Shown piece by piece: positions 4,155 to 37,553 of a stretch of DNA of 64,000 nucleotides (position 1 is its first letter; every line of letters begins with the position of its first letter). Source of the stretch: Paenirhizobium cremeum (GTDB taxonomy: Bacteria; Pseudomonadota; Alphaproteobacteria; Rhizobiales; Rhizobiaceae); the NCBI RefSeq assembly GCF_022884085.1, contig NZ_JAGGCS010000015.1, positions 62,001-126,000 of the forward strand, written 5' to 3'. The position numbers and the translations under genes were made by a program. Below the pieces are notes generated by a model. That model was not told where the DNA came from and searched no databases. It saw only the letters and a list, made by a program, of their open reading frames with translations.

Positions 4155-4421
4155 ATGAAGCGTTCCCGTTTCAGCGACGAGCAGATCATCGGTATTCAGA
4201 AGGAGCATCAGGCCGGGCTTTCGGCTGTTGAGCTGTGCCGCAAATACGGTGTCAGCGACGCGACCTTCTACAAGTGGCGTTCGAAGTATGGCGGCATGGA
4301 AGTGGCCGAGGCCAAACGGCTGAAGGCTCTTGAAGAAGAGAACGGCAAGCTGAAGCGCCTCCTGGCCGACGCGATGCTCGATGTATCGACGTTGAAGGAG
4401 ATGCTCGGAAAAAACTTCTGA
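4155..4421 (+). CDS. IS3-family transposase OrfA
   Basis: This 88-residue protein has an N-terminal helix-turn-helix ([19 protein letters not shown], residues 23-41) that binds the IS ends, then a leucine-zipper-like helix ([18 protein letters not shown]). It matches the OrfA of IS407-group elements in length and sequence. Its last codons overlap the A6C slippery run, so a -1 shift would fuse it to OrfB. Confidence 0.9.
4409..4415 (+). promoter_or_regulatory. A6C programmed -1 frameshift site
   Basis: AAAAAAC sits just before the OrfA stop. Slipping back one base joins OrfA (ending GKN) to a frame reading [19 protein letters not shown], which runs directly into OrfB. This is the standard IS3 mechanism for making the active OrfAB transposase. 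Confidence 0.75.
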
Positions 4422-7295: not shown

Positions 7296-7474
7296 GCCTC
7301 GTCCTCCTCGAAGCTGGCGGTCGCCAGAATGTTGAGGACGATAACGGCCACACCTGCCGCACACCAGAAGAGGAAGGAGCCATACCATTCCGCCACGTTG
7401 GTGAGCAGCGTATAGGGTATGGCGTAGCAGGCGAGGACGACCACGCCTATCAGATATAGAGCAGCTTTCGACAT
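7292..7474 (-). CDS. Small two-helix membrane protein, partner of the symporter
   Basis: Sixty residues with two hydrophobic helices (about 5-27 and 33-52) and an acidic tail (EEDEA). Small proteins of this kind (DUF997/DUF3311 type) are often encoded immediately before SSS transporters, as YhdT is before PanF. Its stop overlaps the symporter start by two bases. A role as accessory subunit is inferred from position. Confidence 0.75.
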   Translation of the reverse strand: MSKAALYLIGVVVLACYAIPYTLLTNVAEWYGSFLFWCAAGVAVIVLNILATASFEEDEA

Positions 7475-7561
7475 GTTGTGACTTCCCTCTAGAGATTGAT
7501 CGGTTGTTTCTGTCCGCCTTTTATCCAGCGGTTTGAACGGGAGTTGCGCGGAGCCCAGAGT

Positions 7562-7582
7562 TCTCCGGCCGTCCGCCGGAGA
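7562..7582 (-). terminator. Hairpin after nicF
   Basis: TCTCCGGC and GCCGGAGA form an 8-bp stem with a 5-base loop, 15 bases past the nicF stop. No T-run follows on the minus strand, so it may only attenuate or protect the transcript ahead of the symporter pair. Confidence 0.4.
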
Positions 7583-7597
7583 GCATCAGTGACAGGC

Positions 7598-8233
7598 TCA
7601 GCGCCCGGAAGGTTGAAGACCGGTGAGCCAGCGCTCGATATCTGCCGCATCCGTCACATCGGCATATTTTTGGTCCATGTCATAGAGATTGGCATCATGC
7701 GGGGCGCGAGCACGGTCAGCGCAGCAATCCGCCGGAACCAGCACGTTGAAACCGCTCTGCACCGCATCCACCACGGAGGCGCGCACGCAGCCCGATGTAG
7801 TGGCGCCGGTGACGACTAGCGTATCCACACCCGCCCCAGTCAACAGGCCGGCAAGTCCCGTACCATGGAAGGCGGAGGCGCCCTTCTTGGTGATCACCGG
7901 GTCCTGCGGCTGAATGCCTGTTGCCGCATCAATCTCCACCAGCCGGCTGCCTTCCAGAAGCGCAGCCATGCCCGTTGCCTTGCGCAACCATGGCAGCAGG
8001 GCAATCTCGCCAGGATGATAGGCAATCGTGGTGTAGATCACCGGATAGCCCTTTGCGCGGGCCAGATCCGTCAGCCGACGGGTCGCGGCAATGGCCGTCG
8101 TCATGTCGGCCGCCGTCGGATAGATCGTGTCGGTGAAGCCATAGGAGAAGTCGACCACGACAATGGCCGGTCGTTGACCGCGGGGGACGGGCTGGCCGAA
8201 GCCTGCGGCCTGGTAGGTTTCTTGCTGCGACAT
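7598..8233 (-). CDS. nicF: Maleamate amidohydrolase (isochorismatase fold)
   Basis: This 211-residue cysteine hydrolase of the isochorismatase / N-carbamoylsarcosine amidase family shows the expected triad: Asp28 (VVVDFS), a lysine at 116-117 (ITKKGAS) and Cys149 (TTSGCVRAS). The N-terminal YQAAGFG is shared by NicF-like amidases. In the maleamate pathway NicF turns maleamate into maleate and ammonia. The assignment over other isochorismatases rests on its place directly after nicE, nicD and nicX. Start is the ATG at 8233. Confidence 0.85.
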   Translation of the reverse strand: MSQQETYQAAGFGQPVPRGQRPAIVVVDFSYGFTDTIYPTAADMTTAIAATRRLTDLARAKGYPVIYTTIAYHPGEIALLPWLRKATGMAALLEGSRLVEIDAATGIQPQDPVITKKGASAFHGTGLAGLLTGAGVDTLVVTGATTSGCVRASVVDAVQSGFNVLVPADCCADRARAPHDANLYDMDQKYADVTDAADIERWLTGLQPSGR

Positions 8234-8263
8234 GGTTTTCTCCCGCGTTTAAGGCTCTGCCGG

Positions 8264-9295
8264 TCAGGCCCTTGCCATCTGGATGTCCTTCACGACGATG
8301 TCGCCATCGATCACCACCGCCTCGTCGTCAAGGAAGAGCGAGCAGCCACGCATGGGGATGTCGAGATGGCAGGCGGTGTCGTTTGGCCCACCGAGTTCGT
8401 TGTTCGGGCCGGTGGAGAACATGACATTGCCGTAGAAGCTGCGCGGTTCCATGCCCATGCCGCCGGGGAAGGCACCGGGTACCAGATTGTGCCACTTCGC
8501 GTTCGGATTCATGCCCCAGCCGACATGGCTCATGCCCATGCCGCGCGGATCGTTGAAGGCCGCCATGTAGGACTTCACCAGCTCCGCATCGAGGCCGCCG
8601 CGGATGTCGGTCACCCAGCCCTTCTCGATAGTGTAGATGATCGGTTCGCGGACATAGATGTTCTGCGGCAGGAGGATGTCACCGGTCGCGACGACGATCT
8701 GGCCGTCAACGCCGTCGTCATCACCGCCGGTGAAGACGAAGCCGGAGGGCCAATGGTCCCATCGGCCCGGCTCGTCCGTGCAGGCATATTCGGTCACGGT
8801 CGGATAGGTGTTGAGCTTGTAGGTGACATCGGTGCCATGCGGCGAAGTGATGCGCATGACCTTGGCCTTGGCGAGCATCTCGCCGGCAATCTCGACCTTC
8901 TCCCGGATCTCCTTCGTCGGCAACATGCGCGCGAGCAGTTCCGGCGGCTCGACGGCGGTCAGGATGCGGGTTCCGGCCGCCTGGATCGCCATCTGCTCCG
9001 GCGAGAAGAGAAGGAAGATGCAGTCGATCAGCATGTCGCAGGCCTTCAGGGCCTCGACCGCGTCCGGCATGGCAGCGAGACCGGTAACGCCGACGTTCCA
9101 GCCGCCGACCGGAAGCGGCGCAGGCAGACGCATGTGATACATGCTGGCGCCGAGACGCTGGCCCGCCGCCATGAAGGCGTCGGCATAGTCTAGGCGATCA
9201 TTGCCCTGGGTGAGTACAATCAGTTTCTCGCCTTCGCGAACACCAGACATCTTCAACTGGTGCAGGCAGATTTCGGTAAAGCTCGCGTGGTCCAT
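8264..9295 (-). CDS. nicX: 2,5-dihydroxypyridine 5,6-dioxygenase
   Basis: A 343-residue Fe(II) dioxygenase that opens 2,5-dihydroxypyridine to N-formylmaleamate. The probable metal ligands seen in NicX are conserved: Glu169 (YPTVTEY), His310 and Asp312 (CHLDIP). Family blocks SPEQ, AVEPPELLARMLPT, DEPGRWDHWPSGF and FYGNVMFSTGPN are also present. The ATG at 9295 gives the family length; a longer open frame to 9364 would overlap nicD. It starts 13 bases after the nicD stop. Confidence 0.95.
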   Translation of the reverse strand: MDHASFTEICLHQLKMSGVREGEKLIVLTQGNDRLDYADAFMAAGQRLGASMYHMRLPAPLPVGGWNVGVTGLAAMPDAVEALKACDMLIDCIFLLFSPEQMAIQAAGTRILTAVEPPELLARMLPTKEIREKVEIAGEMLAKAKVMRITSPHGTDVTYKLNTYPTVTEYACTDEPGRWDHWPSGFVFTGGDDDGVDGQIVVATGDILLPQNIYVREPIIYTIEKGWVTDIRGGLDAELVKSYMAAFNDPRGMGMSHVGWGMNPNAKWHNLVPGAFPGGMGMEPRSFYGNVMFSTGPNNELGGPNDTACHLDIPMRGCSLFLDDEAVVIDGDIVVKDIQMARA

Positions 9296-9308
9296 GGCTC
9301 GGTGCCTT

Positions 9309-10106
9309 TCAGTTCGTCGGGCGGATGGGATGGAAATCGAGGGTAGCGGAGAGGAACCCCTCAAGGTCGTCCCAGGGGATCATGTGGCCAGCTTTTTCGA
9401 CAATCCGCACCTCGATGTCTGGCATCAGTCGGCGGATTTCATCGATGTCGGATGCGCCAATCACCGTCGCGCCACCCGCAACGACGAGGCGCGCCGGCGT
9501 CGTAACCTGGGCGATATCGGCATGGATGTCGTCGACGTGGAAACCGTCAAAGGCGGTGCGGATCGCATCCAGCTGGCAGGTATGCAACCACTCTGCGCGC
9601 AAGTCGTTCTGCTCATCGGTCCAGGTCGGACAGAAGCGGCGCATGTCTGCACCTGAACAGCCTTTCTGTGCCATCAGGATGGAATCTTCGTACCAGGCCC
9701 ACGCGGCGGGATAAGGCCGCCGCCCGGGTCCCGACACCGGAGGATCGACGAGTATCAGCCCGGAGAAGCTTTCGGGCGCCATGCGTGCGGCACGGATAGC
9801 GGTGCGTGCACCCATGGAGTGGCCGAGGACGACCGGTGTTCCAAGACCCGCAGCCGTGACCAAAGCGACGACATCCGCCGCCATGGCGTCAAGCGAGTAA
9901 TCGAGGTCGCCGGCCTGGCTCAGGCCACGGCCACGTACATCCAGCACATGCACGTCATAGGACCGCGCCAGCCGTTCGGCGACGAAACCCCAGGTGATTG
10001 CCGGCGACGTGATGCCCGGCACCAGCAGCATGGCCGGACCATCGCCGGCAAAATGCAACAGGTGATGGCGGATGCCGTTAGCTTGGATATTGTATCCGCG
10101 GACCAT
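9309..10106 (-). CDS. nicD: N-formylmaleamate deformylase (alpha/beta hydrolase)
   Basis: This 265-residue hydrolase releases formate from N-formylmaleamate to give maleamate. The triad is visible: nucleophile Ser97 (GHSMG), Asp121 (LVDPP) and His241 (KAGHMIPWDD). Stretches GITSPAITWGFVAERL, LDVRGRGLS and DPPVSGPGRR are characteristic of NicD rather than of generic alpha/beta hydrolases. The ATG is preceded by GAGGAG at good spacing and lies ten bases after nicE. Confidence 0.94.
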   Translation of the reverse strand: MVRGYNIQANGIRHHLLHFAGDGPAMLLVPGITSPAITWGFVAERLARSYDVHVLDVRGRGLSQAGDLDYSLDAMAADVVALVTAAGLGTPVVLGHSMGARTAIRAARMAPESFSGLILVDPPVSGPGRRPYPAAWAWYEDSILMAQKGCSGADMRRFCPTWTDEQNDLRAEWLHTCQLDAIRTAFDGFHVDDIHADIAQVTTPARLVVAGGATVIGASDIDEIRRLMPDIEVRIVEKAGHMIPWDDLEGFLSATLDFHPIRPTN

Positions 10107-10116
10107 GGGGGTCTCC

Positions 10117-10866
10117 TCAATAGGCGCCAGAGAGCAGCGTGCCGCCGCCAGGAACGCGGGTGTCGAGCTTCAGCGCCTTCAGCATCTGCCAGGTGGTTGC
10201 GATCGCTGCGGTCACGACGGGCTTTCCTGTGACCGCTTCGGCCATCGGCACGGCCGGCAGCGAAGGCATTTGAACGCAGGCCGAGAGCACGACCGCATCA
10301 ACGTCATCGGTCTTCATACCGCGAACGATATCCGGCAGCTTCATCGGGTCATGAGCAGCCACGGCAAGATTGTCGGGGATTTCCAGTGCGCGCCAGTCCG
10401 CAACCTCGATTCCTTCGTTGCGGATATAGGCGACGACCAGTTCGGTCAGCGGCTTCATGTAAGGGGCAACCAGTGCTACGCGCCTGGCGCCGATCGCCTT
10501 CAGTCCCTCGACGAGTGCGCCGGCAGAGGTGACGACAGGCGCCGGATTGCCATTGGTGACGGTCACGCCCTGCAGGCGCGACTGGCTCTGACAATGGTAG
10601 CCGAGGCCCATCGCCATGATCGCGACCAGACAGGCATATCCCATGACGTCGACACGAGCATCGGAAAGCTCCAGCGCGCAGCGGTCGCTGTCGGCGTCCA
10701 TGGCGGCCAGTTCCTCTTTGGTGACATGCTTCATGCGCATGCGGGCCGAGTGGAAGGTAAAGCGCTCGGGCGAGACTTGCTCGCGAAACCGGAGCAGCGC
10801 GGGGATCTCGGTTTCCATCGTGATGTTCGAACTGGGCACGATGAGACCAATGCGGTGGCTTCCCAT
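10117..10866 (-). CDS. nicE: Maleate cis-trans isomerase
   Basis: A 249-residue member of the Asp/Glu racemase superfamily that converts maleate to fumarate, the last step of the pathway. The two catalytic cysteines are Cys79 (MGYACLVAIM) and Cys197 (VVLSACVQMPS), and the N-terminal IGLIVPSSNITMETE is typical. The ATG at 10866 is chosen because GAAGGAG lies just upstream; an earlier ATG at 10896 lacks such a site. It is the first gene of nicEDXF. Confidence 0.92.
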   Translation of the reverse strand: MGSHRIGLIVPSSNITMETEIPALLRFREQVSPERFTFHSARMRMKHVTKEELAAMDADSDRCALELSDARVDVMGYACLVAIMAMGLGYHCQSQSRLQGVTVTNGNPAPVVTSAGALVEGLKAIGARRVALVAPYMKPLTELVVAYIRNEGIEVADWRALEIPDNLAVAAHDPMKLPDIVRGMKTDDVDAVVLSACVQMPSLPAVPMAEAVTGKPVVTAAIATTWQMLKALKLDTRVPGGGTLLSGAY

Positions 10867-24027: not shown

Positions 24028-25827
24028 TTAGGCACGCGACTGGCGATAGGCTCTCCAGCCCCCGAAATGCGTGATGTCCTCAGCGCGTTGGAGCGCGTAA
24101 GGCTCGCAGAGGAAGCCGGATACCTGGCTGCCATCGTCGAGTGTCACTTTGCCGATGCCGAGTGGCGCCGGGATATTTTGAACGAAGCGCCCAAAAGTTG
24201 CGGGCGTGACCTTCCAGACTTCGACCTCCAGGCCGGGACCTGCGAAACCGGGTTCGCGGATCAGGCCCGGTTTCGGCGGCGTGGTGTTGGGCAGCACGAA
24301 AAGGCGGTAATCACCGGCCGTGCGGCAGACCTTCAGGAGTTTTCCACCCGAACTAGCCAGTTCGTGGTTGAGCGGCATGCCCGTCAGATGCGCGCCGACG
24401 ACCATGATGGTGACGAGGCCGTCATCGGGTTCGGCAACCTTCGAGGCTTCCGGCAAGCTCACGGTCTTGTCCTTGCCCATGCCGGAGGCGCAAGCGCGGT
24501 GCATGGCGTCGGCAAAGGGTGCCAGCGCATCGTCCGAGAAGGACGGGCCGAAGAAGGTCACTCCACCAGGCAGGCCGTCCGAACCGAAACCGCCGGGCAC
24601 GGCGATTGCCGCGTAGCCGAAGAGATTGGCGAAGTTGGTGTAGCGACCGAAATGGCTGTTCTTGACGATCGGGTCTGCGAGCATCGCCTCGACCGTATAG
24701 GTGGTCGGCGAGGTCGGCAGCATCAGCACATCGAGCTTTTCCCATTCGACAAGCGCCTTCTGGCGCAGATGCCCGAGCTTGTACTGGCCCTCGAAAGCCG
24801 CAACCGCATCGTAAGCCTTGGCGCCTTCGATGATGGTGCGCACCGTCGGATCGAAATCACCGGCATTGGTGCCGATGAAATCCTTCACCGCCGCCAGACG
24901 TTCGGCCACCCAGGGGCCGTTGTAGAGCAGTTCGGCGGCCTGGCGGAACGGCGCATAGTCGAAGGGAACGATCGTTGCGCCGAGGGATTTCGCCCGCTCG
25001 ACCGCCTGATCGTAGAGGGCTTCCACCGCCTTGTTGCCGAAGAATTCGCGCTCGGCCCCTTCGAGGACACCGATGCGAAGACCAGTGCCCGGCAGGGCGG
25101 CCGGGACGGCCTTGCGGGAATAGGGATCGCCCGCGTCATAGCCGTCCATGACCTTGCGAATCGCGACACCATCGCCGACGGTCGCGGCAAAGACCGTGAC
25201 GACATCGACGCTGCGGCAGGCCGGCACGACACCAACATTCGGTACGAGGCCGGGTGTCGGCTTGATGCCGACGAGGTTGTTGAAGGCGGCGGGCACGCGG
25301 CCCGAACCGGCGGTATCCGTGCCCAGCGCAAAGCTTGCGAGACCCGCCGCAACTGTAACCGCCGAGCCGGACGAGGAGCCACCGGAGACATAGGCCTTGT
25401 CGAAGACAGAGCGCGGGGCTCCATAGGGGGAGCGCGTACCGTTGAGGCCCGTGGCGAACTGGTCGAGATTGGTCTTGCCGATGACGAGGGCGCCAGCGGC
25501 CTTCAGTCTTGCAACGACCGTGGCGTCCTTCTCCGGCTGGTAGGCGAAGGCCGGGCAGGCTGCGGTGGTCGGCAGGCCGGCGACGTCGATATTGTCTTTC
25601 ACCGCGAAGGGCACGCCCCAGAGCGGCAGACTGTTCGGCTCCGGCGCGCGCTCCATCAGGGCCTTTGCGGCTGCCCTCAAGTCATCGTCTGGCGTCTCTG
25701 TGATGAAGACCGCCGGATCGTCGGAGGCCTTGCGACGGGCGATCACCTCCTCGACGAGATCGAGCGGGGTGAGCCCACTGACATAGGCGGCCTTGAGCGA
25801 AGCGAGATCGAGAATAATCGGCAGCAT
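24028..25827 (-). CDS. atzF: Allophanate hydrolase
   Basis: A 599-residue amidase-signature enzyme that splits allophanate into ammonia and CO2. The catalytic Ser-cisSer-Lys set is visible: Lys77 (AVKDNIDVAG), the serine-rich GGSSSGS at 149-155 and Ser175 (DTAGSGR). After residue 460 comes the extra C-terminal domain found in full-length AtzF. It overlaps the carboxylase stop by one base and completes the pathway that begins with carboxylation of guanidine. Confidence 0.93.
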   Translation of the reverse strand: MLPIILDLASLKAAYVSGLTPLDLVEEVIARRKASDDPAVFITETPDDDLRAAAKALMERAPEPNSLPLWGVPFAVKDNIDVAGLPTTAACPAFAYQPEKDATVVARLKAAGALVIGKTNLDQFATGLNGTRSPYGAPRSVFDKAYVSGGSSSGSAVTVAAGLASFALGTDTAGSGRVPAAFNNLVGIKPTPGLVPNVGVVPACRSVDVVTVFAATVGDGVAIRKVMDGYDAGDPYSRKAVPAALPGTGLRIGVLEGAEREFFGNKAVEALYDQAVERAKSLGATIVPFDYAPFRQAAELLYNGPWVAERLAAVKDFIGTNAGDFDPTVRTIIEGAKAYDAVAAFEGQYKLGHLRQKALVEWEKLDVLMLPTSPTTYTVEAMLADPIVKNSHFGRYTNFANLFGYAAIAVPGGFGSDGLPGGVTFFGPSFSDDALAPFADAMHRACASGMGKDKTVSLPEASKVAEPDDGLVTIMVVGAHLTGMPLNHELASSGGKLLKVCRTAGDYRLFVLPNTTPPKPGLIREPGFAGPGLEVEVWKVTPATFGRFVQNIPAPLGIGKVTLDDGSQVSGFLCEPYALQRAEDITHFGGWRAYRQSRA

Positions 25828-28800
25828 TACAGATCCTCCAATACGACCAGGACATCGCCGGCCTTGACGTTGCGACCCGGCCCGGCACGCAGATCCCGGA
25901 CTTTGCCGGCGGCATGGGCGGTGACGGTGATTTCCATTTTCATTGACTCTATGATGGCGAGCGTGTCGCCAGCCTGCACGGACTGACCTTCCTCGACCAG
26001 CAGTTTCCAGACATTACCGGGCACGGCACTTTCCACTCCGAAGCAGCCTTCGGGGATATCGCCGCCGAGGCTTGCCCCTGCGCCGTCATCGACCTGGAAG
26101 CTGTCGAGCCCCTCGTCCTTCCAGCGCTGTCGCTCTGCCTCGAAGGCCGCCTGCTGTCCCTGCTTGAAGGCGCCAATGCTTTCCACATTGCGGGCCATCT
26201 CCGCCTCGTAATCGGCGTAGGAGAAGGTGCCCTCCTCGATACGGATCGGGTAGCCGCCATGCGGGAAGGCGCCGCGCGCTTCCGTCAGTTCCTGATGGCT
26301 CACGGGGAAGAAGCGGATCCGGTCGAAGAAGTCGAGCAGCCAGGGCTTGTCCTTGGCAAACACATCCGTTTGCCGCCAGGTGTTCCACACCTGGATCGTA
26401 CGGCCGAACAACTGGTAACCGCCCGGCCCTTCCATGCCGTAGACGCACATATAGGCGCCGCCAATGCCGACCGCATTCTCCGGCGTCCAGGTACGGGCGG
26501 GATTGTATTTCGTCGTCACCAGCCGGTGGCGCGGATCGATGGGGGTTGCCACCGGCGCGCCGAGATAGACGTCGCCGAGGCCCATCACGAGATAGGAGGC
26601 GTTGAAGATCGTGTCCTTCACCGCCTGCTCGTCGGGGAGCCCGTTGATGCGACGGATGAACTCGATGTTCGACGGGCACCAGGGCGCGTTGGGGCGCACG
26701 AGTTCCTGATACTTGCGCATGGCGAGTTCCGCATCCGGATCGTTCCAGGACAGGGGCAGCCAGACGGTCCGGCTCGGCACCTTGACGGCGGAGACCGGAG
26801 GCAGGCTTTTCTCGATCTCGGTAAGGGCAGCGAGGAGTTTCGAGCGCGACAGCGCGGTGCTGTCATAATGGATCTGCAGCGAGCGGATGCCGGGTGTCAG
26901 ATCGATGAGGCCCTGAAGTCGTGCCTCCTTCACGGCCTGCATCAGCAGATGGATGCGCATGCGGATGCCGATGTCGAGCTGCATCGGACCGTATTCGACC
27001 AGCAGATTGTCATCCCCCTGGCGGCGGTAGACAACGGGGAGGCTGCCTGCCTCTGTCGCTCCGATCACCGCCGACCCGGCTGCTTCGGATACGCGCTTCA
27101 CCGTCGGCCCCGCCAGCGGATCGCTTGCTCGGGCCACGGCATAAAACCGGATCTTATCCCCCGGCTTGAACTGACCCATCTTCCACTGCTCGTCGCGGGC
27201 GATGACCGCCGGGCAGACGAAGCCGCCGAGGCTTGGGCCGTCGGGGCCGAGGATGATCGGCATGTCGCCGGTAAAATCGATTGCACCGACAGCGTAGGCA
27301 TTGTCATGCAGGTTGGAGGGGTGAAGCCCTGCCTCGCCTCCATCGGCGCGCGCCCATTTCGGCGCAGGCCCGATCAGCCGCACGCCGGTACGGGCCGAGT
27401 TGAAATGCACCTCATATTCTGTCGAGAAAAGTGTCTCGATATCCTCCTCAAGGAAGAAGTCGGGCGCGCCATGCGGACCGTAAAGCACGCCGACAGACCA
27501 TTCGCGGGTCAGTTCCGCCGGCTGCGTTGCCGGCAGCACATCGGCCTGGCTCCGGCGCGCCAGCCGCAGCACATGGCCAGCACGCAAGGTGCCGGTGGCA
27601 TTGCCGCCGAACTGGCCGAGGCCGAAGGTGGCGCGGGAACCCATGACCAAGGGCGCGTCAAAACCGCCTGATACCGCCAGATAGGCGCGCTGGCCGGCAC
27701 CGCTGATGCTACCGATGGCCAGGGTCTGGCCGGCCTTGACCTGGACCGCCTGATTATGGGGCAGTTCGACACCGTCGAGCTTCATCGGCATCACCGCTCC
27801 GGCGAGCGCGATCACGGTATCGGAGAAGAATTTCAGTATCGGCCCCGAGGCGGTTAGCTCCAGGGCCGCCGTATAATCATGATTGCCGACGAGACGGTTG
27901 GCATGGCGGAAGGAACGTTCGTCCATCGGGCCCGACGGCGGTACGCCGACATGCCAGAGACCCAGACGGCCCGGCAGTTCCTGCAGGCTCGATTGTGCGC
28001 CGGGGGCGATCACCTCGACGACATCCGGCACGAATTCGAAATCCTTCAAGGCCGTGGTCGCAACATCGCCGCTGCGGAACAGGCCCGAGGCGGCGATGGT
28101 CTTCAGGTATTCGAGATTGGTCTCGATGCCCGCAAGCGCGGTTTTTTCCAGCGCGGACGATAACGCCGCAATGGCTGCGGTACGATCCGCGCCCGAAACG
28201 ATGACCTTGGCGAGCATGGGATCGTAAAAGGGCGTAACTTCGGTTCCGGTCTCCACCCAGCCGTCAACGCGGACGCCATCGGGAAAGACCACTTCCGTCA
28301 GCAGACCGGCACTCGGGCGGAAACCGGCATGGGGCATTTCGGCATAGACACGCGCCTCGATCGCAGTCCCCCTCGGTACGAGGTTTTCCTTGCCGGTCAG
28401 CACATCTTCGCCAGCCGCCTGACGGATCATCCATTCGACCAGATCTACACTGAAGACAGCTTCCGTCACCGGATGCTCGACCTGCAGACGCGTGTTCACC
28501 TCGAGGAAATAGAATTCTTCGCGGGCGGGATCATAGATGAATTCGACGGTGCCGGCGGAGGCGTAAGCCACCTGCCGCCCGAGCGACACGGCGGCCGCAT
28601 GCAGGCGCTGGCGCACCGCATCGGACAGCCCTGGGGCCGGCGTTTCTTCGATGACTTTCTGGTTCCGGCGCTGCAGGGAGCAGTCGCGTTCGCCGAGCGC
28701 GATCACCCTGCCCTTGCCGTCGCCGAAGATCTGCACCTCGACATGACGGGCCTGGGAAACGAAGCGTTCGAGATAGACGCGGGCGTCGCCAAAACTGGAT

Positions 28801-29363
28801 TTTGCCGTGCGTTGAACGGTGTCGAAGGCTGCGGCAAGAGCCTCCACACTGTCGCAGAGTTGCATGCCGATACCGCCGCCGCCCGCCGTCGATTTCAGCA
28901 TCACGGGATAGCCGATCTCTGCGGCCGCAGAGAGCGCCTCTTCCCGGTTGGCAAGCAGGCCGGAGCCCGGCAGCAGCGGCACGCCGCTCGCTTTCGCCAG
29001 CTCACGCGCGGTGTGCTTCAGGCCGAAGGCGGAGATATTCGCGGGCGTCGGGCCGATGAAGGTGATGCCTTCCTCCTTCAGCCGTTCGGCAAAGCCGATG
29101 TTCTCCGAAAGAAAACCATAGCCGGGATGCACGGCTTCGGCACCGGTCTGCCGGCAGGCGGCGATCACGGCATCGATGTTCAGGTAGCTTTCGCTGGCAG
29201 GCGCCGGTCCGAGGCGCACCGCCTCGTCCGCCATGAGCACGGCTTTCGAAAAGCGGTCGGCATCGGAGTAGACCGCAACGCTCGCGATCCCCATCTTGCG
29301 CAGCGTCTTGATGACGCGCACGGCGATCTCGCCGCGATTGGCAATCAGAACCTTTTTGAACAT
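25827..29363 (-). CDS. Biotin-dependent guanidine/urea carboxylase
   Basis: An 1178-residue multidomain carboxylase. Residues 1-450 form the biotin carboxylase ([14 protein letters not shown] at the start, glycine-rich loop [12 protein letters not shown]). The middle, about 470-1060, holds the KipI/KipA-like carboxyltransferase domains. The C-terminus is a biotin carrier with the biotinylated lysine in ESMKMEI near residue 1138. Such proteins were called urea carboxylase, but those linked to DUF1989 proteins and a guanidine-I riboswitch act on guanidine. The riboswitch seen upstream favours guanidine carboxylase. It overlaps both neighbours by one base. Confidence 0.9.
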
Positions 29364-30034
29364 CAGGCCGCCTCGTCGTCCCAGACGAGCACCCGGATCG
29401 GGGTGGGATCAAAGCCGTTGCAAGGGTTGTTGATCTGCGGGCAATTGGAGATGACGAGCAGCACGTCCATCTCCGCTTTCAGCTCGACATAGTCCCCGGG
29501 AGCGGAAATGCCGTCGACGATGGTCATTTCGCCGGAGGGTTCGATCGGCACGTTCATAAAGAAGTTGATGTTCGGCACGACGTCGCGCTTGCTCATGCCA
29601 TGTTTGGAAACCTCGATGACAAAGTTATCGCGGCAGGCATGCAGGTATTTCGTGTAGTGGCCGAAGCGCACGGTATTGCTCTCGCAGGAGCAGGCGCCTG
29701 CGGAGGTGTCGTGCCGGCCACAGCTGTCGGCGGTCACCGTCAGCATCACCCGGCCTTCGTTGGAGATCACCTTTGTGCCGGTGGAGATATAGGCCGCGCC
29801 CTGCTCGCGCATGGTGTCCTGGCTGGAATAGCGCTCGGAGAAATCATGGGCATTGTAGAACAGCGTATCGACGGCCTGCTGGCCGTAGGTGTCCTCGATA
29901 CGCACCACCTGGCCTTGTCTGATGAAGGTCGAGAAAGGCGCTTCGGCGGCGATGTAGTGGTCCTGCGCGGTATTGGAGAGGGTACGGGCGGGAGATGTCT
30001 GCTTAAAATTGGTCATGGTCGCCTCTCCTCTCAC
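29363..30034 (-). CDS. DUF1989 protein, carboxyguanidine deiminase subunit (UAAP1)
   Basis: A 223-residue protein of the urea-carboxylase-associated family (DUF1989), with [17 protein letters not shown] and [21 protein letters not shown] segments. Members of this family form the two-subunit carboxyguanidine deiminase (CgdAB) that produces allophanate from carboxyguanidine. The pair here matches that arrangement, but which gene is A and which B was not decided. Cysteines near residues 103-112 could bind metal. ATGA overlap with the upstream gene. Confidence 0.82.
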
Positions 30035-30858
30035 AGGGCCGCGGAGGTGTTGTTTTCAAAGCCACGGATGGCTTCGGCAGTCGCGGTTCGGCACAGGTCG
30101 TCGGCAGCCGGCTCGATGGCGGCGATCCGCGTAATACTGACTGGACTGGGCGCATAGACCGGGTTTGGGTCGAGTGGGTGCGGGCAATTGGAGAAGCCGA
30201 CGATCATGTCCATCTCGGCACGCAGATCGACATAGTCGCCATTGGAAACGAGATTGGGTTTCCACTCGAATTTTCCATCGGCATCGACACGGACGGGTGC
30301 GAACAGGGCCAGCGCTGCCGGAACGTCGCGCTTGTCTAAGCCCGCCTTGGTGGCGATCAGCACGAAGTTGTCGCGGGTGTTGCGCAAAGCCGGACCATTC
30401 TGCCCGGCATATTTCTTCGCGTTGGAAGAGGCGGTCGATCCGCCCATCAGCACGTCATGCGCGCCGCAACTGTCTTCCACGATGGAAAACATCACCTTGC
30501 CCATGTCGGAGAAGATCACCCGGCCTTTCCCGAGACCTGTCGTCCACTGCACCTTCACCGTATCGGGCAGGTTCATGCGCTCGCTGGGGTCAGCGGCATT
30601 CCAAGCAACGACGGAAACGGTCGAGAAGCCTTCGTCGAGCGCCACGCGCAACACCTCGTTAGCCTTCACGCGCGTCCACCAATACCAGCCGCCGGGCAGC
30701 TTTTCCTGATGAACGATCTGGCCGGCTTCAATGGACGGCGCAGGTTTCCCGCTCTTGCCCGGCAGTGTCTTGGGCGCAAATTCCAGCCCCTTTTTCTGAT
30801 GTTCCTCGTAGCGCGCGCGGTTTGCGGCAATCTCTTCTGGTGAACGTCTGATATGCAT
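30031..30858 (-). CDS. DUF1989 protein, carboxyguanidine deiminase subunit (UAAP2)
   Basis: A 275-residue DUF1989 paralogue of the next gene, with a longer N-terminus and the segments VVAWNAADPSERMNLPDTV and DSCGAHDVLMGG. It is expected to pair with the other DUF1989 protein in carboxyguanidine deiminase. Position between the ABC importer and the carboxylase is the usual guanidine-operon order. Confidence 0.82.
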   Translation of the reverse strand: MHIRRSPEEIAANRARYEEHQKKGLEFAPKTLPGKSGKPAPSIEAGQIVHQEKLPGGWYWWTRVKANEVLRVALDEGFSTVSVVAWNAADPSERMNLPDTVKVQWTTGLGKGRVIFSDMGKVMFSIVEDSCGAHDVLMGGSTASSNAKKYAGQNGPALRNTRDNFVLIATKAGLDKRDVPAALALFAPVRVDADGKFEWKPNLVSNGDYVDLRAEMDMIVGFSNCPHPLDPNPVYAPSPVSITRIAAIEPAADDLCRTATAEAIRGFENNTSAAL

Positions 30859-30896
30859 GTTGATCTCCAGTGGTTCCGTTGGTCGGGTCGTCCCGG

Positions 30897-31685
30897 CTAT
30901 TGACCCTTTGAGGAGACCGGGCCGTCCCGGTCGGGGCGAAAGATGGAAGGCACGCCCGCCCGTCTCGGCGGCCAGATGGCAATATCTTTGGTGATAGTCG
31001 CGCCATAACGCAGCTTCTCTTCCGGGCGGTCGCGTGACCGCTCGAAGGCAACGACACGGGTGGCAAGCGTGAAGGCTTCACGCATGTCATGCGTCACCAT
31101 CACCACGGTCATCGGCGCTTCGTGCCAGAGTTTTTTCATCAGCGTATGGATCTCGGCGCGGATGCCGGGGTCGAGCGCGCCGAATGGCTCGTCCAGCAGT
31201 AGCACCTTGGGCCGCACGATCAGCGCCTGTGCCAGAGCCAAACGCTGCTGCATGCCGCCCGAAAGCTGGGCAGGATATTTGTTCTCGGCCCCCATCAGGC
31301 CAACTGCCGCGATCATCGCGCGGGCCTCTTCCTCTACCGCGCGACGTGCCGAACCGAACAGGCGACCAGCCACGCGCGAGGCTTTCAACTCCCTGCCAAA
31401 CATGACATTGCCGAGCACGGTCAGATGCGGAAACACCGAGTAGCGCTGAAAGACGACGCCGCGATCCGGCCCCGGCTCCTTCGGCAGAGGCTCGCCATCC
31501 AGCAGTATCTTGCCCTTGGTCTGGGTTTCCTGCCCCAGCAGCATGCGCAGGAAGGTGGATTTGCCGCAGCCGGACGGACCGACGAGCGCGACGAAGGCGC
31601 GAGAGGCAATCTCGATGGAGACGTTCTCCAGCACGATCTGGTCGCCATACTCCTTCCAAACATTCTGGATCGAAAGGGCGCTCAT
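30897..31685 (-). CDS. ABC transporter ATP-binding protein, guanidine import
   Basis: A 262-residue NitT/TauT-type ATPase with Walker A GPSGCGKST, signature LSGGMQQR and Walker B VLLLDEPFGALD. It overlaps the permease stop by four bases. Guanidine as the substrate is inferred from the riboswitch and the downstream enzymes. Confidence 0.88.
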   Translation of the reverse strand: MSALSIQNVWKEYGDQIVLENVSIEIASRAFVALVGPSGCGKSTFLRMLLGQETQTKGKILLDGEPLPKEPGPDRGVVFQRYSVFPHLTVLGNVMFGRELKASRVAGRLFGSARRAVEEEARAMIAAVGLMGAENKYPAQLSGGMQQRLALAQALIVRPKVLLLDEPFGALDPGIRAEIHTLMKKLWHEAPMTVVMVTHDMREAFTLATRVVAFERSRDRPEEKLRYGATITKDIAIWPPRRAGVPSIFRPDRDGPVSSKGQ

Positions 31686-32500
31686 TTGCCCTTCTCCAGT
31701 TCCGACCAGGGGAAGACGGCGATGCGCAGGCGATCGAGCAGGATGTCGGTCACGACGGCGAGCAGCGTGATCCAGATTACGTAAGGGAAGATCACGTCCA
31801 TCGAGAGGTATCGCCGCACCAGAAAGATGCGGTAGCCGAGGCCGCTATCCGAGGAGATGGCTTCCGCCGCGATCAGGAACAGCCAGGCAGGGCCGAGTTG
31901 CAGGCGAAGCGTTGTGATCAGCCGCGGCAGGATCTGCGGCAGCACCACCCTCAAAGCAATCTGCCAGGAGGAGGCTGACAACGTTTCAGCCTTCACGATT
32001 ATTTCGCGCGGCAGCGATATCGCTGTCAGTGCCAGATCACGGATCATGATCGGCGTCACGCCGATGGCAATCAGCGCAATCTTGGAGGTCTCGCCCAGCC
32101 CCATCACGATGAAGAGAATGGGGAGCAGCGCCAACGGAGGAACCATGGAAATGGCACCAACGAAGGGGGACAGGGCTGCCCGGGCGTAGGGGAGGATGCC
32201 GATCACGAGCCCCAGCAGGAGTGCGATCACGGTGGCGATGCCAAGCCCGGCAAAGAGTCGCCCGAGACTGGCCCAGGTATCCGACCAGAGCAGATAGTCG
32301 CCGGTTCTGACATCGCGGGTGAAAGCCATGCGGTCAATCGCTTCCCCGAGGGCAGCGAAGCCGGGCAGCAGCTTGTCGTTCGGGTTTTCGGCAAGTCGTT
32401 CCGCCGAGCCGATCATGTAGGCTGCAAGCACCAGCACGAAGGGCAAGAGCACGAGCGTCAGGCGCGCGCCATTTCCGGGATGAGCATTGATCCAGCGCAT
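31682..32500 (-). CDS. ABC transporter permease, guanidine import
   Basis: A 272-residue inner-membrane permease of the NitT/TauT type with about six helices and a conserved loop (ETLSASSWQIALRVVLPQIL) near residue 165. It probably functions as a homodimer, because only one permease gene is present. Confidence 0.88.
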   Translation of the reverse strand: MRWINAHPGNGARLTLVLLPFVLVLAAYMIGSAERLAENPNDKLLPGFAALGEAIDRMAFTRDVRTGDYLLWSDTWASLGRLFAGLGIATVIALLLGLVIGILPYARAALSPFVGAISMVPPLALLPILFIVMGLGETSKIALIAIGVTPIMIRDLALTAISLPREIIVKAETLSASSWQIALRVVLPQILPRLITTLRLQLGPAWLFLIAAEAISSDSGLGYRIFLVRRYLSMDVIFPYVIWITLLAVVTDILLDRLRIAVFPWSELEKGK

Positions 32501-32568
32501 CGACCACTCCAGGATTTCAGGAAGGCGGGCGTCGTCCGGAAGACACCGTCAACCGGACGGCAGTGGCC

Positions 32569-33639
32569 TCAAAGCGCACCCTTGGCGGCGGCATCCATGT
32601 AGGTGGTGGTGAAACGGAACTTCACGTTTTCCTTGTCGCCGAGTACCGAGCCATCCGCCAGTTCGATGCCGATGACATCGGCAGACGGCGCACCGCTTCC
32701 GAGCAGGCCCTTTTCAAAGAGGAAGTTGCGGACGAGATCCATGGTCTTCGACAGGTCCGGAGAGGCTGTGAAGGTGACCGCATCGGCCGGCTTGTCGAAG
32801 AGCTTGGTTGCTGCCATCTGCGCCTCGAAGCCGGCGAGATCCGTTCCGGAGGCCGTGCCCATCGCTGTCCGCGCGGCCTTGCCCTCGTCCGTCTGCGCCG
32901 TCATGACGGCCATGGTCTCATACCAGATGCCGGCCAGCGCCTTGCCGAAGTCGGGATTGTCCTTCAGCACATCGGTGTTGGCAACCATCAGGTCGATGAT
33001 TTCGCCCGGGATCTGCGAGCTGTCGAAGACCTTCTTGGCGGAGGCGTCTTCGAGGATGGAGGAGACCAGCGGGTTCCAGGTGACGACGGCGGTCACGTCA
33101 GGGGTCTGATAGGCGGCAACCATGTCGGCATCCGACGTGTTGACCACCTTCACGTCACGCTCGGAGGAGCCGATGCTCTCGAGCGCGCGGGCGAGCAGAT
33201 AATGCGAGACCGAGAACTCGACAAGATTGACGTTCTGGCCCTTCACATCCTCGAGCTTATCCTTGCCCTTGAGGATCAGAGCGTCGTTGCCGTTCGAGAA
33301 GTCGCCAACGATGACGGCTGTCGTGTCGACGCCGCCGGCGGCCGGGATCGAAAGCCCGTCCATATTGGTGAGCGTCACCGCGTCGAAGGCACCGGCGGTA
33401 TACTGGTTCATCGATTCCACATAGTCGTTAAACTGGGTGACCTCGATATTGATGCCATATTTGTCGGCCCACTTCTTCACGATGCCATGGTCGGCGGCGT
33501 AGCCCCAGGGCATCCAGCCCACATAGATGGACCACGCCACTTTGAATTCCTTCTTGGGCGCGGCATAGGCGCCAAGCGGCGCAGCGAGAGCAAGGGCTGC
33601 CACCGAAAGCGTGGCGAGAAATTTCGAAATGGTCCGCAT
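32569..33639 (-). CDS. ABC transporter substrate-binding protein, guanidine import
   Basis: A 356-residue periplasmic protein with a signal peptide ending GAYAA near residue 27, in the NitT/TauT binding-protein class (VAWSIYVGWMPWGYAADHG). It is the first gene after the guanidine-I riboswitch. The ATG at 33639 follows AAGGGGA; an upstream ATG at 33690 would lie inside the riboswitch-linked leader. Confidence 0.9.
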   Translation of the reverse strand: MRTISKFLATLSVAALALAAPLGAYAAPKKEFKVAWSIYVGWMPWGYAADHGIVKKWADKYGINIEVTQFNDYVESMNQYTAGAFDAVTLTNMDGLSIPAAGGVDTTAVIVGDFSNGNDALILKGKDKLEDVKGQNVNLVEFSVSHYLLARALESIGSSERDVKVVNTSDADMVAAYQTPDVTAVVTWNPLVSSILEDASAKKVFDSSQIPGEIIDLMVANTDVLKDNPDFGKALAGIWYETMAVMTAQTDEGKAARTAMGTASGTDLAGFEAQMAATKLFDKPADAVTFTASPDLSKTMDLVRNFLFEKGLLGSGAPSADVIGIELADGSVLGDKENVKFRFTTTYMDAAAKGAL

Positions 33640-33670
33640 TGGATATTCCCCTTCTTGAGCGATCTTCAGA

Positions 33671-33707
33671 AAGGGATCGGCATGAACCATCGCGCCGCCA
33701 ATCCCTT
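33671..33707 (-). promoter_or_regulatory. Hairpin after the riboswitch, likely expression platform
   Basis: On the minus strand AAGGGATTGGC pairs with GCCGATCCCTT (11 bp with one G-U pair, 15-base loop). It begins about ten bases after the riboswitch and ends 32 bases before the first start codon. The downstream TCTGAAG is only slightly U-rich, so termination control is possible but not certain. Confidence 0.5.
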
Positions 33708-33717
33708 GGCTTACGAG

Positions 33718-33815
33718 GTCTCCCGGGCTTTTGTCCCGCCGTGCACCCGGCGGGATGTCTCCCCGCCGGTCGCCGCTCTCGGACCAGTCGCACGTGATCG
33801 TGCCGGAACCCTAGC
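33718..33815 (-). ncRNA. Guanidine-I (ykkC) riboswitch
   Basis: Read on the minus strand, the leader contains the conserved ykkC blocks in order and spacing: CTAGGGTTCCG, then ACTGGTCCGAGAGC, then GGCGGGACAAAAGCCCGGGAGA (split: GGGACAAAAGCCC plus GGGAGA). These form the guanidinium-binding core. Binding turns on genes for guanidine export or breakdown. It lies about 80 bases before the ABC binding-protein gene and should govern the whole operon through atzF. Confidence 0.95.
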
Positions 33816-34073
33816 CGCTAACTCTGGAATATAGAAAGCAAACCTCATGCCAATCTTCAAATCGCCTCTTTTCCATCACCGTCAGCACGTTCAACAAAGA
33901 AGTGGGGGAGAGTTGCACACAATCGAGACATTATTGCCTATTTTTCATTCTGCTGTGCGCGCAAGCAAACTCCTCTTCGACCGTATTACCTAGTCGAACA
34001 CCCGCTCTTCGCGATAGTTCAACGGCGGCGTCAACACGCCCAGCTTGGCGTACTGTGATCCAACGCTACGGCA

Positions 34074-34588: not shown

Positions 34589-35329
34589 TTAGATTTCAAC
34601 AGAATTGCCGCCGGCGTCTTTAAGGCCCGCATATTCCTCATAGGAATCCTCGACAGTCAGGATGTGCCGGCGCATTGATTCCGCTGCAAGCTCGCGATTG
34701 CCCTGCAGGATGGCGACGAGGATTGCGTCGTGTTCCTTGTAGGATTTCGCCAGACGCCCTGCAGTCAGGAACTGCGCACGACGGAAAGGCGAGAGCCGTC
34801 GACGCGTCGCAAGCGTGATTTCGACCAGATAGGCATTGTGGCTGCCAGCATAGATCGCCGCATGGAACTTCTCGTTGAGCACATGATAATGGCTCGGGTC
34901 GTTCTCCTTTAGGATCTGTGCCAAACCTTCATGGATGGTTTCCAGCGTGCGGCGTTCAGAAAGACTCATATGCGCAGCCGCTAGGCTTGCGCAAAGGGCT
35001 TCCAGCTCAGCCATCACCTGGAACATCTGCCGCAGATGCTCGGGAGAAGGCCTCGTGACGATGGCGCTGCGATGCGGCCGCGTTTCAACCAGTCCCATTG
35101 CGGCGAGATCCCGTATCGCCTCACGCAAGGGTGTCCGCGACACGCCATAACTTGCGGCGATCTCGGTCTCATCCAGCGCCATTCCGGGCGACAGCTTGCC
35201 GTCAACAATGTCGTCGGCAAGCCGCGCGCGAACTTCCTCGGCGCGTGTCAGCTTACGCCGCGATCCGGTTTCCTTGGCCGGGGAAATGTCCCCGCCCACC
35301 TTCAGGCTTTTCTTCATTATTGCATCCAA
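34589..35329 (-). CDS. GntR-family regulator (FCD domain)
   Basis: A 246-residue regulator with a winged helix at residues 28-95 (ETEIAASYGVSRTPLREAIRDLA) and an FCD effector domain with metal-binding histidines in the C-terminal half (LNEKFHAAIYAGSHN and KEHDAI). It is likely the local regulator of the MATE/hydrolase and ABC genes; the 18-bp palindrome at 37536-37553 in the divergent promoter region is a candidate site. No clear ribosome binding site decides between ATGs at 35329 and 35317. Confidence 0.85.
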   Translation of the reverse strand: MDAIMKKSLKVGGDISPAKETGSRRKLTRAEEVRARLADDIVDGKLSPGMALDETEIAASYGVSRTPLREAIRDLAAMGLVETRPHRSAIVTRPSPEHLRQMFQVMAELEALCASLAAAHMSLSERRTLETIHEGLAQILKENDPSHYHVLNEKFHAAIYAGSHNAYLVEITLATRRRLSPFRRAQFLTAGRLAKSYKEHDAILVAILQGNRELAAESMRRHILTVEDSYEEYAGLKDAGGNSVEI

Positions 35330-35354
35330 AGGAGCTATCTTCCTGCAAGTATCC

Positions 35355-36785
35355 TTACGTCGGACTTATCATCTTGCGCAACACGTCTCGACTTTCGCGT
35401 GTAACAACCGAACCATCGGCGGAGGCAACTGCGCGGCCCGTCATATATGTCCAGCGCAGGAGCAGGCAACACGCGACGCTGGTAATGCTGGCCAATATGC
35501 CAAACCAGACACCGATAACGCCGAAATCCAGCCAAAGGGACAGAAGAAAGGCCGTCGGCAAGCCGATCAGCCAGTAGCCGCAAAGGCCCACGATCATCGG
35601 CACTCGCGTATCCTTCAGGCCACGGAGCGCACCATTTGCTGCCGATTGAATTCCATCGAATACGAGGAAACCGGCCAGGATCAGGATCAGCTGCTGCGCC
35701 AAGGGCTCTATGGCTGCGGAATCTACTGTATCGGCACCGAGAAGCAGATCGATGATCTGCCGGGAGGCCAGGAAGAAAAGAGCGCCGAAAAACGCCATCA
35801 CACCGGCCGCCGTCATCAGGGAGATATTTCCGGCCAATCGCGCAGCAGCCGGCCTGCCGGCACCGAGATGATAGGCGACCCGCACGGTCGTTGCCTGACC
35901 GATGGCGATGATCGGGTTAAAGGCGATGTTGTTCAGCGTGTAGACGATCTGATTAGCGATGATCGCAACAGTCCCGAACCCACTGGTAATCAGCGTCAGC
36001 ACCAGAGTCATGCCGAGCTCTGCGGCGTAAATGAGCGCGATCGGCCAGCCGATCTTCCAGACGTCTCGCAGCGCTTGCGTGGCCTTTCTCGAGGCATTGC
36101 AGATGGTCGAAGCAGGCAGATGTCCGGTGAGAAGGGAATAGGCGGTCAATCCGGCGGCGATCAGCCACCAAGCAATGGTGTAGGTGATGCCGGCCCCCGT
36201 CAATCCGTATCCGGCGAAACCGAAGCCGCCGAATGTCAGTGTGGAGAGCGCCGGCACATAGAACACCGCACCGATCGCAACCGATGCCATCGTCAGCCAG
36301 GATTTCCCCGAAACTGAGAAATAGAGACGGATCGGCACGATCCAGAGTATAGCCGGCACGGCCCAGGCCGCCATGGTGACGAACTGGTCGACATCGTGCA
36401 GGATATCCGCCTCGACGCCGAACGGCTGAAGAATGGCCGGTAGATTGAGAAGAATGGCAACCGACAGAAGCGACAGGATAAGGCTCGCCAGAATGGCCCC
36501 GCCGAAAGCATAGGCCGCATCGTCGCCGCCCTGCCCTTCCGTCTCGCTTTTTCCCCTGGCGGCGGCCATCAGCGGATGCGCGCCCGCAATCACGCCCTGT
36601 GACACGACGACAAGCACCTGAATGAAGACGGCGCAAAGGCCACTCGCCGCAAGCGCGGAGCCGCTAAGGCGCCCAAGCATGACGCTCGCCGCAAGGCTCA
36701 TCACAAGCTGGCTGGCCTGAGCAACCGCAAGCGGAGCTGCGATACCCACGAGGGACCGCAGCTCGTTTCGTGCTTCGTGGGTCAT
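35355..36785 (-). CDS. MATE-family multidrug/metabolite efflux protein
   Basis: A 476-residue inner-membrane protein with about 12 helices. ELRSLVGIAAPLAVAQASQLVMS at the start and the internal duplication of two six-helix bundles are typical of the MATE (NorM-like) family. The ATG at 36785 lies ten bases after the upstream hydrolase stop, so both are probably one transcript. The exported compound is unknown. Confidence 0.88.
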   Translation of the reverse strand: MTHEARNELRSLVGIAAPLAVAQASQLVMSLAASVMLGRLSGSALAASGLCAVFIQVLVVVSQGVIAGAHPLMAAARGKSETEGQGGDDAAYAFGGAILASLILSLLSVAILLNLPAILQPFGVEADILHDVDQFVTMAAWAVPAILWIVPIRLYFSVSGKSWLTMASVAIGAVFYVPALSTLTFGGFGFAGYGLTGAGITYTIAWWLIAAGLTAYSLLTGHLPASTICNASRKATQALRDVWKIGWPIALIYAAELGMTLVLTLITSGFGTVAIIANQIVYTLNNIAFNPIIAIGQATTVRVAYHLGAGRPAAARLAGNISLMTAAGVMAFFGALFFLASRQIIDLLLGADTVDSAAIEPLAQQLILILAGFLVFDGIQSAANGALRGLKDTRVPMIVGLCGYWLIGLPTAFLLSLWLDFGVIGVWFGILASITSVACCLLLRWTYMTGRAVASADGSVVTRESRDVLRKMISPT

Positions 36786-36795
36786 GCCTTGGTGA

Positions 36796-37431
36796 TCAGG
36801 CAGCAGCAGCGGCCTGCGCGGCGAAGGCATCGATGACCTCCTGCGCATTGCGGCGGGCTCCGGCCTGCAGATATTCCATCGCCACCAGTGCCGCGTCATG
36901 TGCAGCCTGACTGGAGCCCGAAACGCAATCCTCGATGACGCGGCAGTAGTAATCCCCCTGATGTGCATCGACGAAGCTGTAATGGATGCAGACATCGGTG
37001 AAACCGCCGACGAAGAACAGCGTCTCGGCCTTCACGGCCTTGAGCAGGATTTCCATCTCGGTGCCATAGAAGACCGAATAGCGACGCTTGGTGATACGCA
37101 GGTCATCCGGCGTCATTTCCATCTCCTCGACCGGGAAAGGCGTACCCGGCGAGCTTTCGAGGCAATGGATGCTTTCCGAGCCATCCAGCTCACGGCCGAA
37201 ATCGATCAGGCTGTCGCGATGCGCTTCCTGCACGAAGATGATCGGGATACCGGCCTTGCGGGCAGCATCAACAACCGATTTCGCACGCCAGTTGCGCTCG
37301 ATGTGATCGCCCATAAATTCAAGACGGGATGCGGTCGGCCGCGGCATGAAGCCCGACTTTTGAATATCAACGACGATCAGGGCAGCGCGCCCGACGATCA
37401 TGGGCTTCGGGACGATCGGATTTCCAGACAT
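36796..37431 (-). CDS. Isochorismatase-fold cysteine hydrolase, copy 1
   Basis: A 211-residue hydrolase: Asp in LIVVDIQKSG, lysine in ITKRRYSVFYGTE and the catalytic cysteine in GGFTDVCIHYSF. It is clearly paralogous to the protein at 41605-42225 (shared PMIVG, VVDIQK, GREMDG/GRELDG, KRRYS, EDCV.GSS). The ATG at 37431 aligns the two N-termini; an open frame continues upstream to 37551. Substrate unknown; this fold hydrolyses amides such as carbamoylated or hydroxamate-like compounds. Confidence 0.82.
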   Translation of the reverse strand: MSGNPIVPKPMIVGRAALIVVDIQKSGFMPRPTASRLEFMGDHIERNWRAKSVVDAARKAGIPIIFVQEAHRDSLIDFGRELDGSESIHCLESSPGTPFPVEEMEMTPDDLRITKRRYSVFYGTEMEILLKAVKAETLFFVGGFTDVCIHYSFVDAHQGDYYCRVIEDCVSGSSQAAHDAALVAMEYLQAGARRNAQEVIDAFAAQAAAAA

Positions 37432-37535
37432 CAGCTTCACTCGCTTGCTTATAACAGAGACCGGCACCCCTTTTTTGACCTGAAAATTCGAGCAGCAGGG
37501 GCGCTTACCGTCGCGATTATACACGCCGGATTTAA

Positions 37536-37553
37536 GTATGCAATATTGCATAC
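37536..37553. promoter_or_regulatory. Perfect 18-bp palindrome in divergent promoter region
   Basis: GTATGCAATATTGCATAC is perfectly symmetric and lies between the leftward hydrolase-MATE genes and the rightward ABC operon. The TATGCAATA half-site is of the kind bound by GntR/FCD regulators, and such a gene is encoded nearby at 34589-35329. Confidence 0.7.

Follow-up and report, generated by a model that had tools for sequence, protein, structure and literature searches.

A guanidine carboxylase operon of Paenirhizobium cremeum with a leader Guanidine-I aptamer and a Guanidine-II element that overlaps the importer ATPase gene

Genes and RNA elements of the operon

The stretch of Paenirhizobium cremeum DNA analysed here (64,000 nucleotides of contig NZ_JAGGCS010000015.1, hereafter the window) carries seven genes on the minus strand, running from 33690 down to 24028, which consist of an ABC importer trio, two DUF1989 genes, a carboxylase gene (gca) and an allophanate hydrolase gene. 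Two RNA elements accompany them, a Guanidine-I (Gd-I, ykkC) aptamer in the leader and a Guanidine-II (Gd-II, mini-ykkC) element between the ATPase gene and the first DUF1989 gene (Table 1). An initial annotation, made from the sequence alone, had given the gene order as importer, two DUF1989 proteins, biotin carboxylase and allophanate hydrolase, and the matches to Pfam and NCBIfam models, together with the reading frames, bear this out. The start of the substrate-binding protein is probably at 33639 rather than 33690, as a ribosome site and a predicted signal peptide begin there. The two DUF1989 genes are paralogous and adjoin gca, which is the arrangement expected of the carboxyguanidine deiminase CgdAB; both match PF09347, and their frames overlap by 4 nucleotides (nt). 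The carboxylase is 1178 amino acids long and comprises biotin-carboxylase, carboxyltransferase and biotin-carrier domains.

Table 1. Features of the operon in window coordinates
Feature	Position	Strand	Match or remark
Guanidine-I (ykkC) aptamer	33718..33825	-	RF00442, 81.7 bits, E 5.3e-13, model 1-107
Candidate terminator-like hairpin past Gd-I	33668..33707	-	12-pair stem AAGGGATTGGCG / TGCCGATCCCTT, G-U pairs, weak U tract
ABC importer substrate-binding protein	32569..33639	-	TIGR03427, 547 bits
ABC importer permease	31682..32500	-	PF00528
ABC importer ATPase	30897..31685	-	PF00005; stop TAG 30899-30897
P0 5' strand (candidate)	30934..30937	-	four pairs, one G-U; partner 30906-30903
Guanidine-II (mini-ykkC)	30883..30933	-	RF01068, 33.0 bits; P1 30932-30915, linker, P2 30896-30883
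Candidate anti-Shine-Dalgarno (GGTCTCC, TCCTC)	30910..30918	-	complementary to GGAGATC 30868-30862, by eye, one G-U
P0 3' strand (candidate)	30903..30906	-	in the Gd-II linker
Shine-Dalgarno GGAG, first deiminase gene	30865..30868	-	6 nt before the ATG at 30858
Carboxyguanidine deiminase subunit, UAAP1, DUF1989	30031..30858	-	TIGR03425, 270 bits, cut-off 206
Carboxyguanidine deiminase subunit, UAAP2, DUF1989	29363..30034	-	TIGR03424, 331 bits, cut-off 285
Guanidine carboxylase (label: urea carboxylase)	25827..29363	-	TIGR02712, 1816 bits
Allophanate hydrolase	24028..25827	-	TIGR02713, 783 bits, cut-off 511; PF01425, PF21986

Covariance-model matches were judged against the Rfam gathering scores of 63 bits for RF00442 and 32 bits for RF01068. 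The ykkC leader that had been placed at 33718-33815 falls inside the RF00442 match (33825-33718, minus strand), which spans the full length of the model and scores above the cut-off. The same aptamer scores 99.7 bits with R2, a Gd-I model built from 29 training sequences, the window not being one of them. Scans of the 5.33-Mb genome at E values up to 0.001 returned no other RF00442 match and no second RF01068 match; at the same limit, Gd-I was found in 32 and Gd-II in 89 of 199 genomes of the window's family.

The terminator-like hairpin begins about 10 nt past the aptamer, and its U tract amounts to four T among seven bases if the final two stem bases are included. A hairpin passing an equal test was present in 28 of 37 scanned leaders of class A, by which we mean loci whose Gd-II lies close to where the first deiminase gene begins (class B: Gd-II before gca). 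A generic scan for promoters and terminators gave nothing in the leader, its loop limit of 3-8 excluding the 33668-33707 hairpin. Among ten post-aptamer leaders, the minimum-energy fold contained a long terminator-like stem in one (locus L104), the others preferring a different fold, and because of this we treat the Gd-I terminator as a candidate only.

Guanidine or urea as the substrate

Urea-type naming of such operons persists. TIGR02712 is titled 'urea carboxylase' in NCBIfam, and RefSeq names the enzyme likewise in Rhizobium leguminosarum, so the expectation that a standard annotation would say urea carboxylase was correct. The region of the ATPase/deiminase junction matches 219 plasmid records, 124 of them from Rhizobium, and urea-type names stand on all 14 annotated records among the 15 matches listed.

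Guanidine carboxylases have been classed by Asp at the positions of K. lactis residues 1330 and 1584 (accessible text of PMC11410670), and a review, in its accessible part, assigns Asp to guanidine enzymes and Asn to urea enzymes (PMC12186494). When the carboxyltransferase active site was aligned with the urea carboxylase of the yeast K. lactis (5i8i), as the initial annotation had suggested, Asp696 of the window protein lay opposite Asn1330, so the residue at the discriminating position is that of guanidine enzymes and not the Asn of urea carboxylases. Asp931 lies opposite Asp1584 (columns counted by hand) and is the second Asp required of guanidine carboxylases. Both positions are invariant in a 14-sequence alignment that includes the window, and the first is Asp in 80 of 81 gca loci, this sample being the window and 80 loci among the matches listed. 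The lone exception, L160, belongs to a Hyphomicrobium metagenome-assembled genome (MAG); its gca (7001-10594) has a urea-type Asn (motif VNFTGD), with Gd-I and Gd-II by the operon.

It could be argued that the operon degrades urea through urea carboxylase and allophanate hydrolase, and that its guanidine switches are incidental; the 1816-bit match to an equivalog model named for urea carboxylase and the RefSeq names in R. leguminosarum would suit such a view. The enzyme has Asp rather than Asn at the K. lactis 1330 position, however, and two guanidine aptamers, deiminase genes and a urease alpha gene elsewhere in the genome all argue against urea, which we consider extremely improbable; the urea pathway was rejected on Asp696. 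Urea breakdown needs no deiminase genes. Since the operon has Gd-I, the full gene set, Asp696 and Asp931, since urease is encoded elsewhere and since no second full-length carboxylase of this type was found in the genome, the sequence supports its identification as a guanidine carboxylase operon, a known kind whose pathway is already published. The guanidine-pathway reading that had been proposed is thus supported by the RF00442 match and by Asp696, and it would correct the 'urea' label on the records mentioned above.

Upstream of the operon, on the same strand (34589-37551), are genes for a GntR/FCD regulator, a MATE efflux pump and an isochorismatase-family hydrolase, the last with a weak match to biuret hydrolase (54.9 bits against a cut-off of 370). 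Among Gd-I importer loci without gca, the one region inspected (L062, 3980-5200) has a ureohydrolase-like gene next, probably a guanidinase as judged by eye.

The Guanidine-II element and the ATPase gene

The Gd-II element was not reported in the initial annotation. It has the two ACGR-loop hairpins of its class, P1 with loop ACGG and P2 with loop ACGA, and was scored with two further models. The training set of R1 comprised 26 Gd-II elements from related genomes and excluded both the window and three elements of gca operons; R1 gave 38.6 bits (E 8.3e-6 in 81 sources, 1.38 Mb); R3, whose training set contains the window element, gave 65.7 bits. One might take the element for a decayed, non-functional relic in an operon regulated by Gd-I alone, as it stands just 1 bit above the Rfam cut-off, its outermost P2 pair is C-A, the candidate extra helix P0 described below is weak, and its P1 loop is of the ACGG type, described as less active in the accessible part of PMC9300104. 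Against decay, the core loop and inner stem bases are intact, the independent R1 and also R3 give the scores stated above, and a near-identical Gd-II occupies the same place in the close relatives L102 and L139. We therefore regard a relic as quite unlikely, and take the element to be a second guanidine switch.

Of the 81 gca loci, 60 have Gd-II by the operon, 43 in class A and 17 in class B, counting two weaker class-A matches (L142, L143) and five weaker class-B matches (L145, L150, L151, L154, L157); at E up to 0.01 the numbers are 41 and 12. Besides the window, class A is alphaproteobacterial by record title, except for L140, which is titled only Proteobacteria, and none is beta- or gammaproteobacterial; in class B, all 17 titles are those of Beta- or Gammaproteobacteria. 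The placing of each genus in these groups is general knowledge applied to the titles. The rule of placement is not universal, because several alphaproteobacterial loci (e.g. L138, L144, L149, L165 and L173) gave no Gd-II match. Within the window's family, regions were taken around every Gd-I match found in other genomes; these 36 matches fall in 35 stretches, of which 14 hold gca. Gd-II precedes the first deiminase gene in 11 of these 14 regions by a double-hairpin scan and in 12 by R3, with some of the relatives' genomes overlapping with the 81-locus sample and the R3 training set; L063 and L079 have no Gd-II at the deiminase junction.

In one relative, L101 (7159-8851, G190:C17), a span of about 1.7 kb contains four Gd-II-like elements, one on the opposite strand. 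In L120 (3280-5443, Methylobacterium), two genes separate the ATPase gene from Gd-II, which appear by eye to be creatininase- and glutamine synthetase-like. A single leader in L142 (5223-5460, a Hyphomicrobiales MAG) holds a Gd-I of 80.5 bits and, 66 nt away, a Gd-II-like element that at 22.1 bits falls short of the cut-off of 32. No importer intervenes, and the pair may be a tandem in which different classes sense the same ligand.

In the window, the last codons of the ATPase gene encode P1 and the linker. The ATPase gene adjoins Gd-II in 37 of the 43 class-A loci, and its frame was followed there to the stop. This lies beyond P2 in 23 loci and ahead of P1 in 6; another 7, the window among them, have it between the two hairpins, and in one locus it falls within the weak L143 match. 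Five of the 7 stops between P1 and P2 had been binned as lying in P2; that of the window actually sits directly before P2. With the weak L143 left out, the frame overlaps Gd-II in 30 of 36 class-A loci. In class B, by contrast, cgd2 ends before Gd-II in 16 of the 16 loci with a cgd2 match. The first loop is read in one frame in 27 of the 30 overlapping loci (with tails such as RDGPV and RDDPA) and in another in three Bradyrhizobium loci, a pattern that points to conservation of the RNA and not of the peptide.

The overlap may carry little weight if a GC-rich stretch simply stays open by chance and Gd-II is an ordinary leader switch. By a rough estimate, some 25 GC-rich codons would often be free of stops, and 6 of the 36 class-A elements lie fully outside the gene. 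The difference between the classes (30/36 vs 0/16) speaks against chance, as does R. leguminosarum WSM2304, where both hairpins (4346 and 4379) lie inside the ATPase gene as annotated in RefSeq (L186, 3588-4418), which extends 4 nt into the following gene (start at 4415). Chance is a serious alternative nonetheless, to which we give somewhat less than even weight. Rather doubtful, in our view, is the proposal that in Alphaproteobacteria a Gd-II within the ATPase frame, ahead of the deiminase genes, serves as C-terminal gene tail and aptamer at once, with P0 added and its 3' strand placed in the linker that may cover the ribosome site, tying enzyme synthesis both to guanidine and to the ribosome traffic on the ATPase gene; its odds are lowered by the appearance of the P0 alternative in just two of 12 folded elements. 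If the proposal were true, ribosomes on the ATPase gene would end in Gd-II or near the next start, each would unfold part or all of the switch, and enzyme output would be tied to importer output.

Proposed switching and comparison with known systems

The genes, the active-site Asp, both aptamers with their conservation, and the ATPase overlap can be read from the DNA, and on these we build the following model, in which the responses of the two RNAs and their order are conditional. Guanidine bound by the leader Gd-I would block the terminator-like hairpin, so that the operon is transcribed and the importer, whose substrate is presumably guanidine, is made. Gd-II at the ATPase/deiminase junction would control how far the enzyme genes are translated. 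As long as guanidine is absent, the Gd-II linker would reach around P2 and pair with the ribosome site that serves the first deiminase gene; once guanidine is present, P1 and P2 would kiss and the linker would be withdrawn, freeing the site. In the alphaproteobacterial type the withdrawn linker may fold back under P1 as a further helix, P0. The carboxylase would then act on guanidine, the deiminase would convert the product to allophanate, and the hydrolase would release ammonia and CO2 from it. We consider it highly probable that the operon serves the use of guanidine as a nitrogen source under two guanidine switches.

A linker that masks the ribosome site is also part of the published Gd-II model (accessible text of PMC9300104), in which the kissing contact loosens that pairing. 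In the folded ensemble of the window, pairing of the ribosome site with the linker has a weight of 0.56. A model in which P1 and P2 melt in order to mask the site was unsupported, as forcing these GC-rich hairpins changed almost nothing, and masking around P2 fits better in the folds.

P0 would be formed by the bases just before P1 pairing with linker bases. Its strands vary between lineages, being GCCCC/GGGGC in most Rhizobium, GCTCC/GGAGC in Bradyrhizobium and GACC/GGTC in Agrobacterium vitis. Once L142 and L143 were dropped, 41 class-A elements had clean loops in both hairpins, and 39 of these can form at least four P0 pairs. Four pairs are common with swapped linkers too, however (a mean of 15.8 of 23 elements against 21 of 23 observed), so the evidence for P0 is the excess and not the count. 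The mean P0 score was 12.6 against 8.4 with shuffled linkers (standard deviation 0.55; none of 500 reached it). For 39 distinct elements it was 12.14 against 9.63 with swapped linkers (standard deviation 0.41; 0/1000), and for 23 hand-chosen lineage representatives 12.28 against 10.0 (standard deviation 0.59; 1/2000 reached it). This excess was not seen in 8 class-B elements (3.06 vs 3.23, nine off-pattern matches dropped) or in 26 other Gd-II elements (5.25 vs 5.63). Taken jointly in an alignment that was fitted to the structure, the three helices gave a covariation score that beats 500 of 500 shuffles, and two other measures that were reached by 13/500 and 17/500.

Several observations weigh against the reading as a whole or against its steps. 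L160 carries both aptamers together with Asn at the key position, and 21 of the 81 gca loci are without a Gd-II match. Folding of 39 class-A elements (two were dropped, their ribosome site being unrecognised) made the linker the main partner of the site, with a weight of at least 0.5, in 11; in 4, including three Bradyrhizobium, the main partner was the stretch before P1 with the P0 5' strand, in 7 it was later sequence, and the remaining elements were undecided. Forcing P1 and P2 did not open the site further (mean unpaired 0.36 free, 0.35 forced), and the model therefore needs the kissing contact, which is invisible to the folding program. Complementarity between linker and site is modestly above that of swapped pairs (-6.87 vs -6.25, 2/200), in sequences that are related. 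For P0, covariation in fixed columns was no better than in shuffles (158/500 reach the score), and it was dropped as support in favour of the register-free swap tests; the helix thus finds support only if the linker register may vary. The window's own P0 is present in neither of its two folds, which differ by 1.2 kcal/mol. When 12 elements were folded with and without the ribosome site kept free, masking and P0 were alternatives in two, L110 (-38.8, -35.8) and L117 (-28.6, -23.6); P0 was already in the lowest fold of three (L104, L105, L137) and in neither fold of seven, the window included. The role proposed for P0, as the ON-state partner of the linker, is only partly backed.

The pathway and the pairing of Gd-I with Gd-II in one operon are already known. 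For the Gd-II at the ATPase/deiminase junction, its overlap with that ATPase gene, and P0, we found no published description in a search that covered literature listings and the papers cited here, which does not prove that none exists. As far as the accessible parts of the sources go, the closest known system is the gca/mgdH operon of Vreelandella boliviensis (PMC12508155), which likewise has a leader Gd-I, an internal Gd-II, an ABC importer, cgdA/B, gca and allophanate hydrolase. Guanidine binding in vitro is reported for both RNAs of that operon, the Gd-II also taking methylguanidine. Its Gd-II lies between cgdB and gca; in the window the element instead sits at the ATPase/deiminase junction, with part of it inside the ATPase gene. 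V. boliviensis also has mgdH and mgdL between gca and the hydrolase gene; the window's pair shares base 25827 and leaves no room for them. The Gd-II before sugE of E. coli resembles ours in the ACGR loops of P1 and P2 and in a linker proposed to mask the ribosome site, but it controls an efflux pump gene and has the ACGG/ACGA order reversed (accessible text of PMC9300104).

The guanidine operons of Raoultella, Erwinia and Klebsiella, in the accessible part of PMC12186494, also have two switches, with the importer under Gd-I. Their deiminase genes go with Gd-I and only the carboxylase and hydrolase genes with Gd-II, unlike in the window, where all enzyme genes come after Gd-II. Control by two guanidine switches at different levels has been named as a subject for further study (PMC12508155, accessible part). 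A riboswitch within a translated gene would permit a direct test of ribosome traffic versus ligand sensing, and the Alphaproteobacteria on the one hand and the Beta- and Gammaproteobacteria on the other offer a natural comparison, in which the two switches and the pathway are the same and the junction that holds the translational switch differs.

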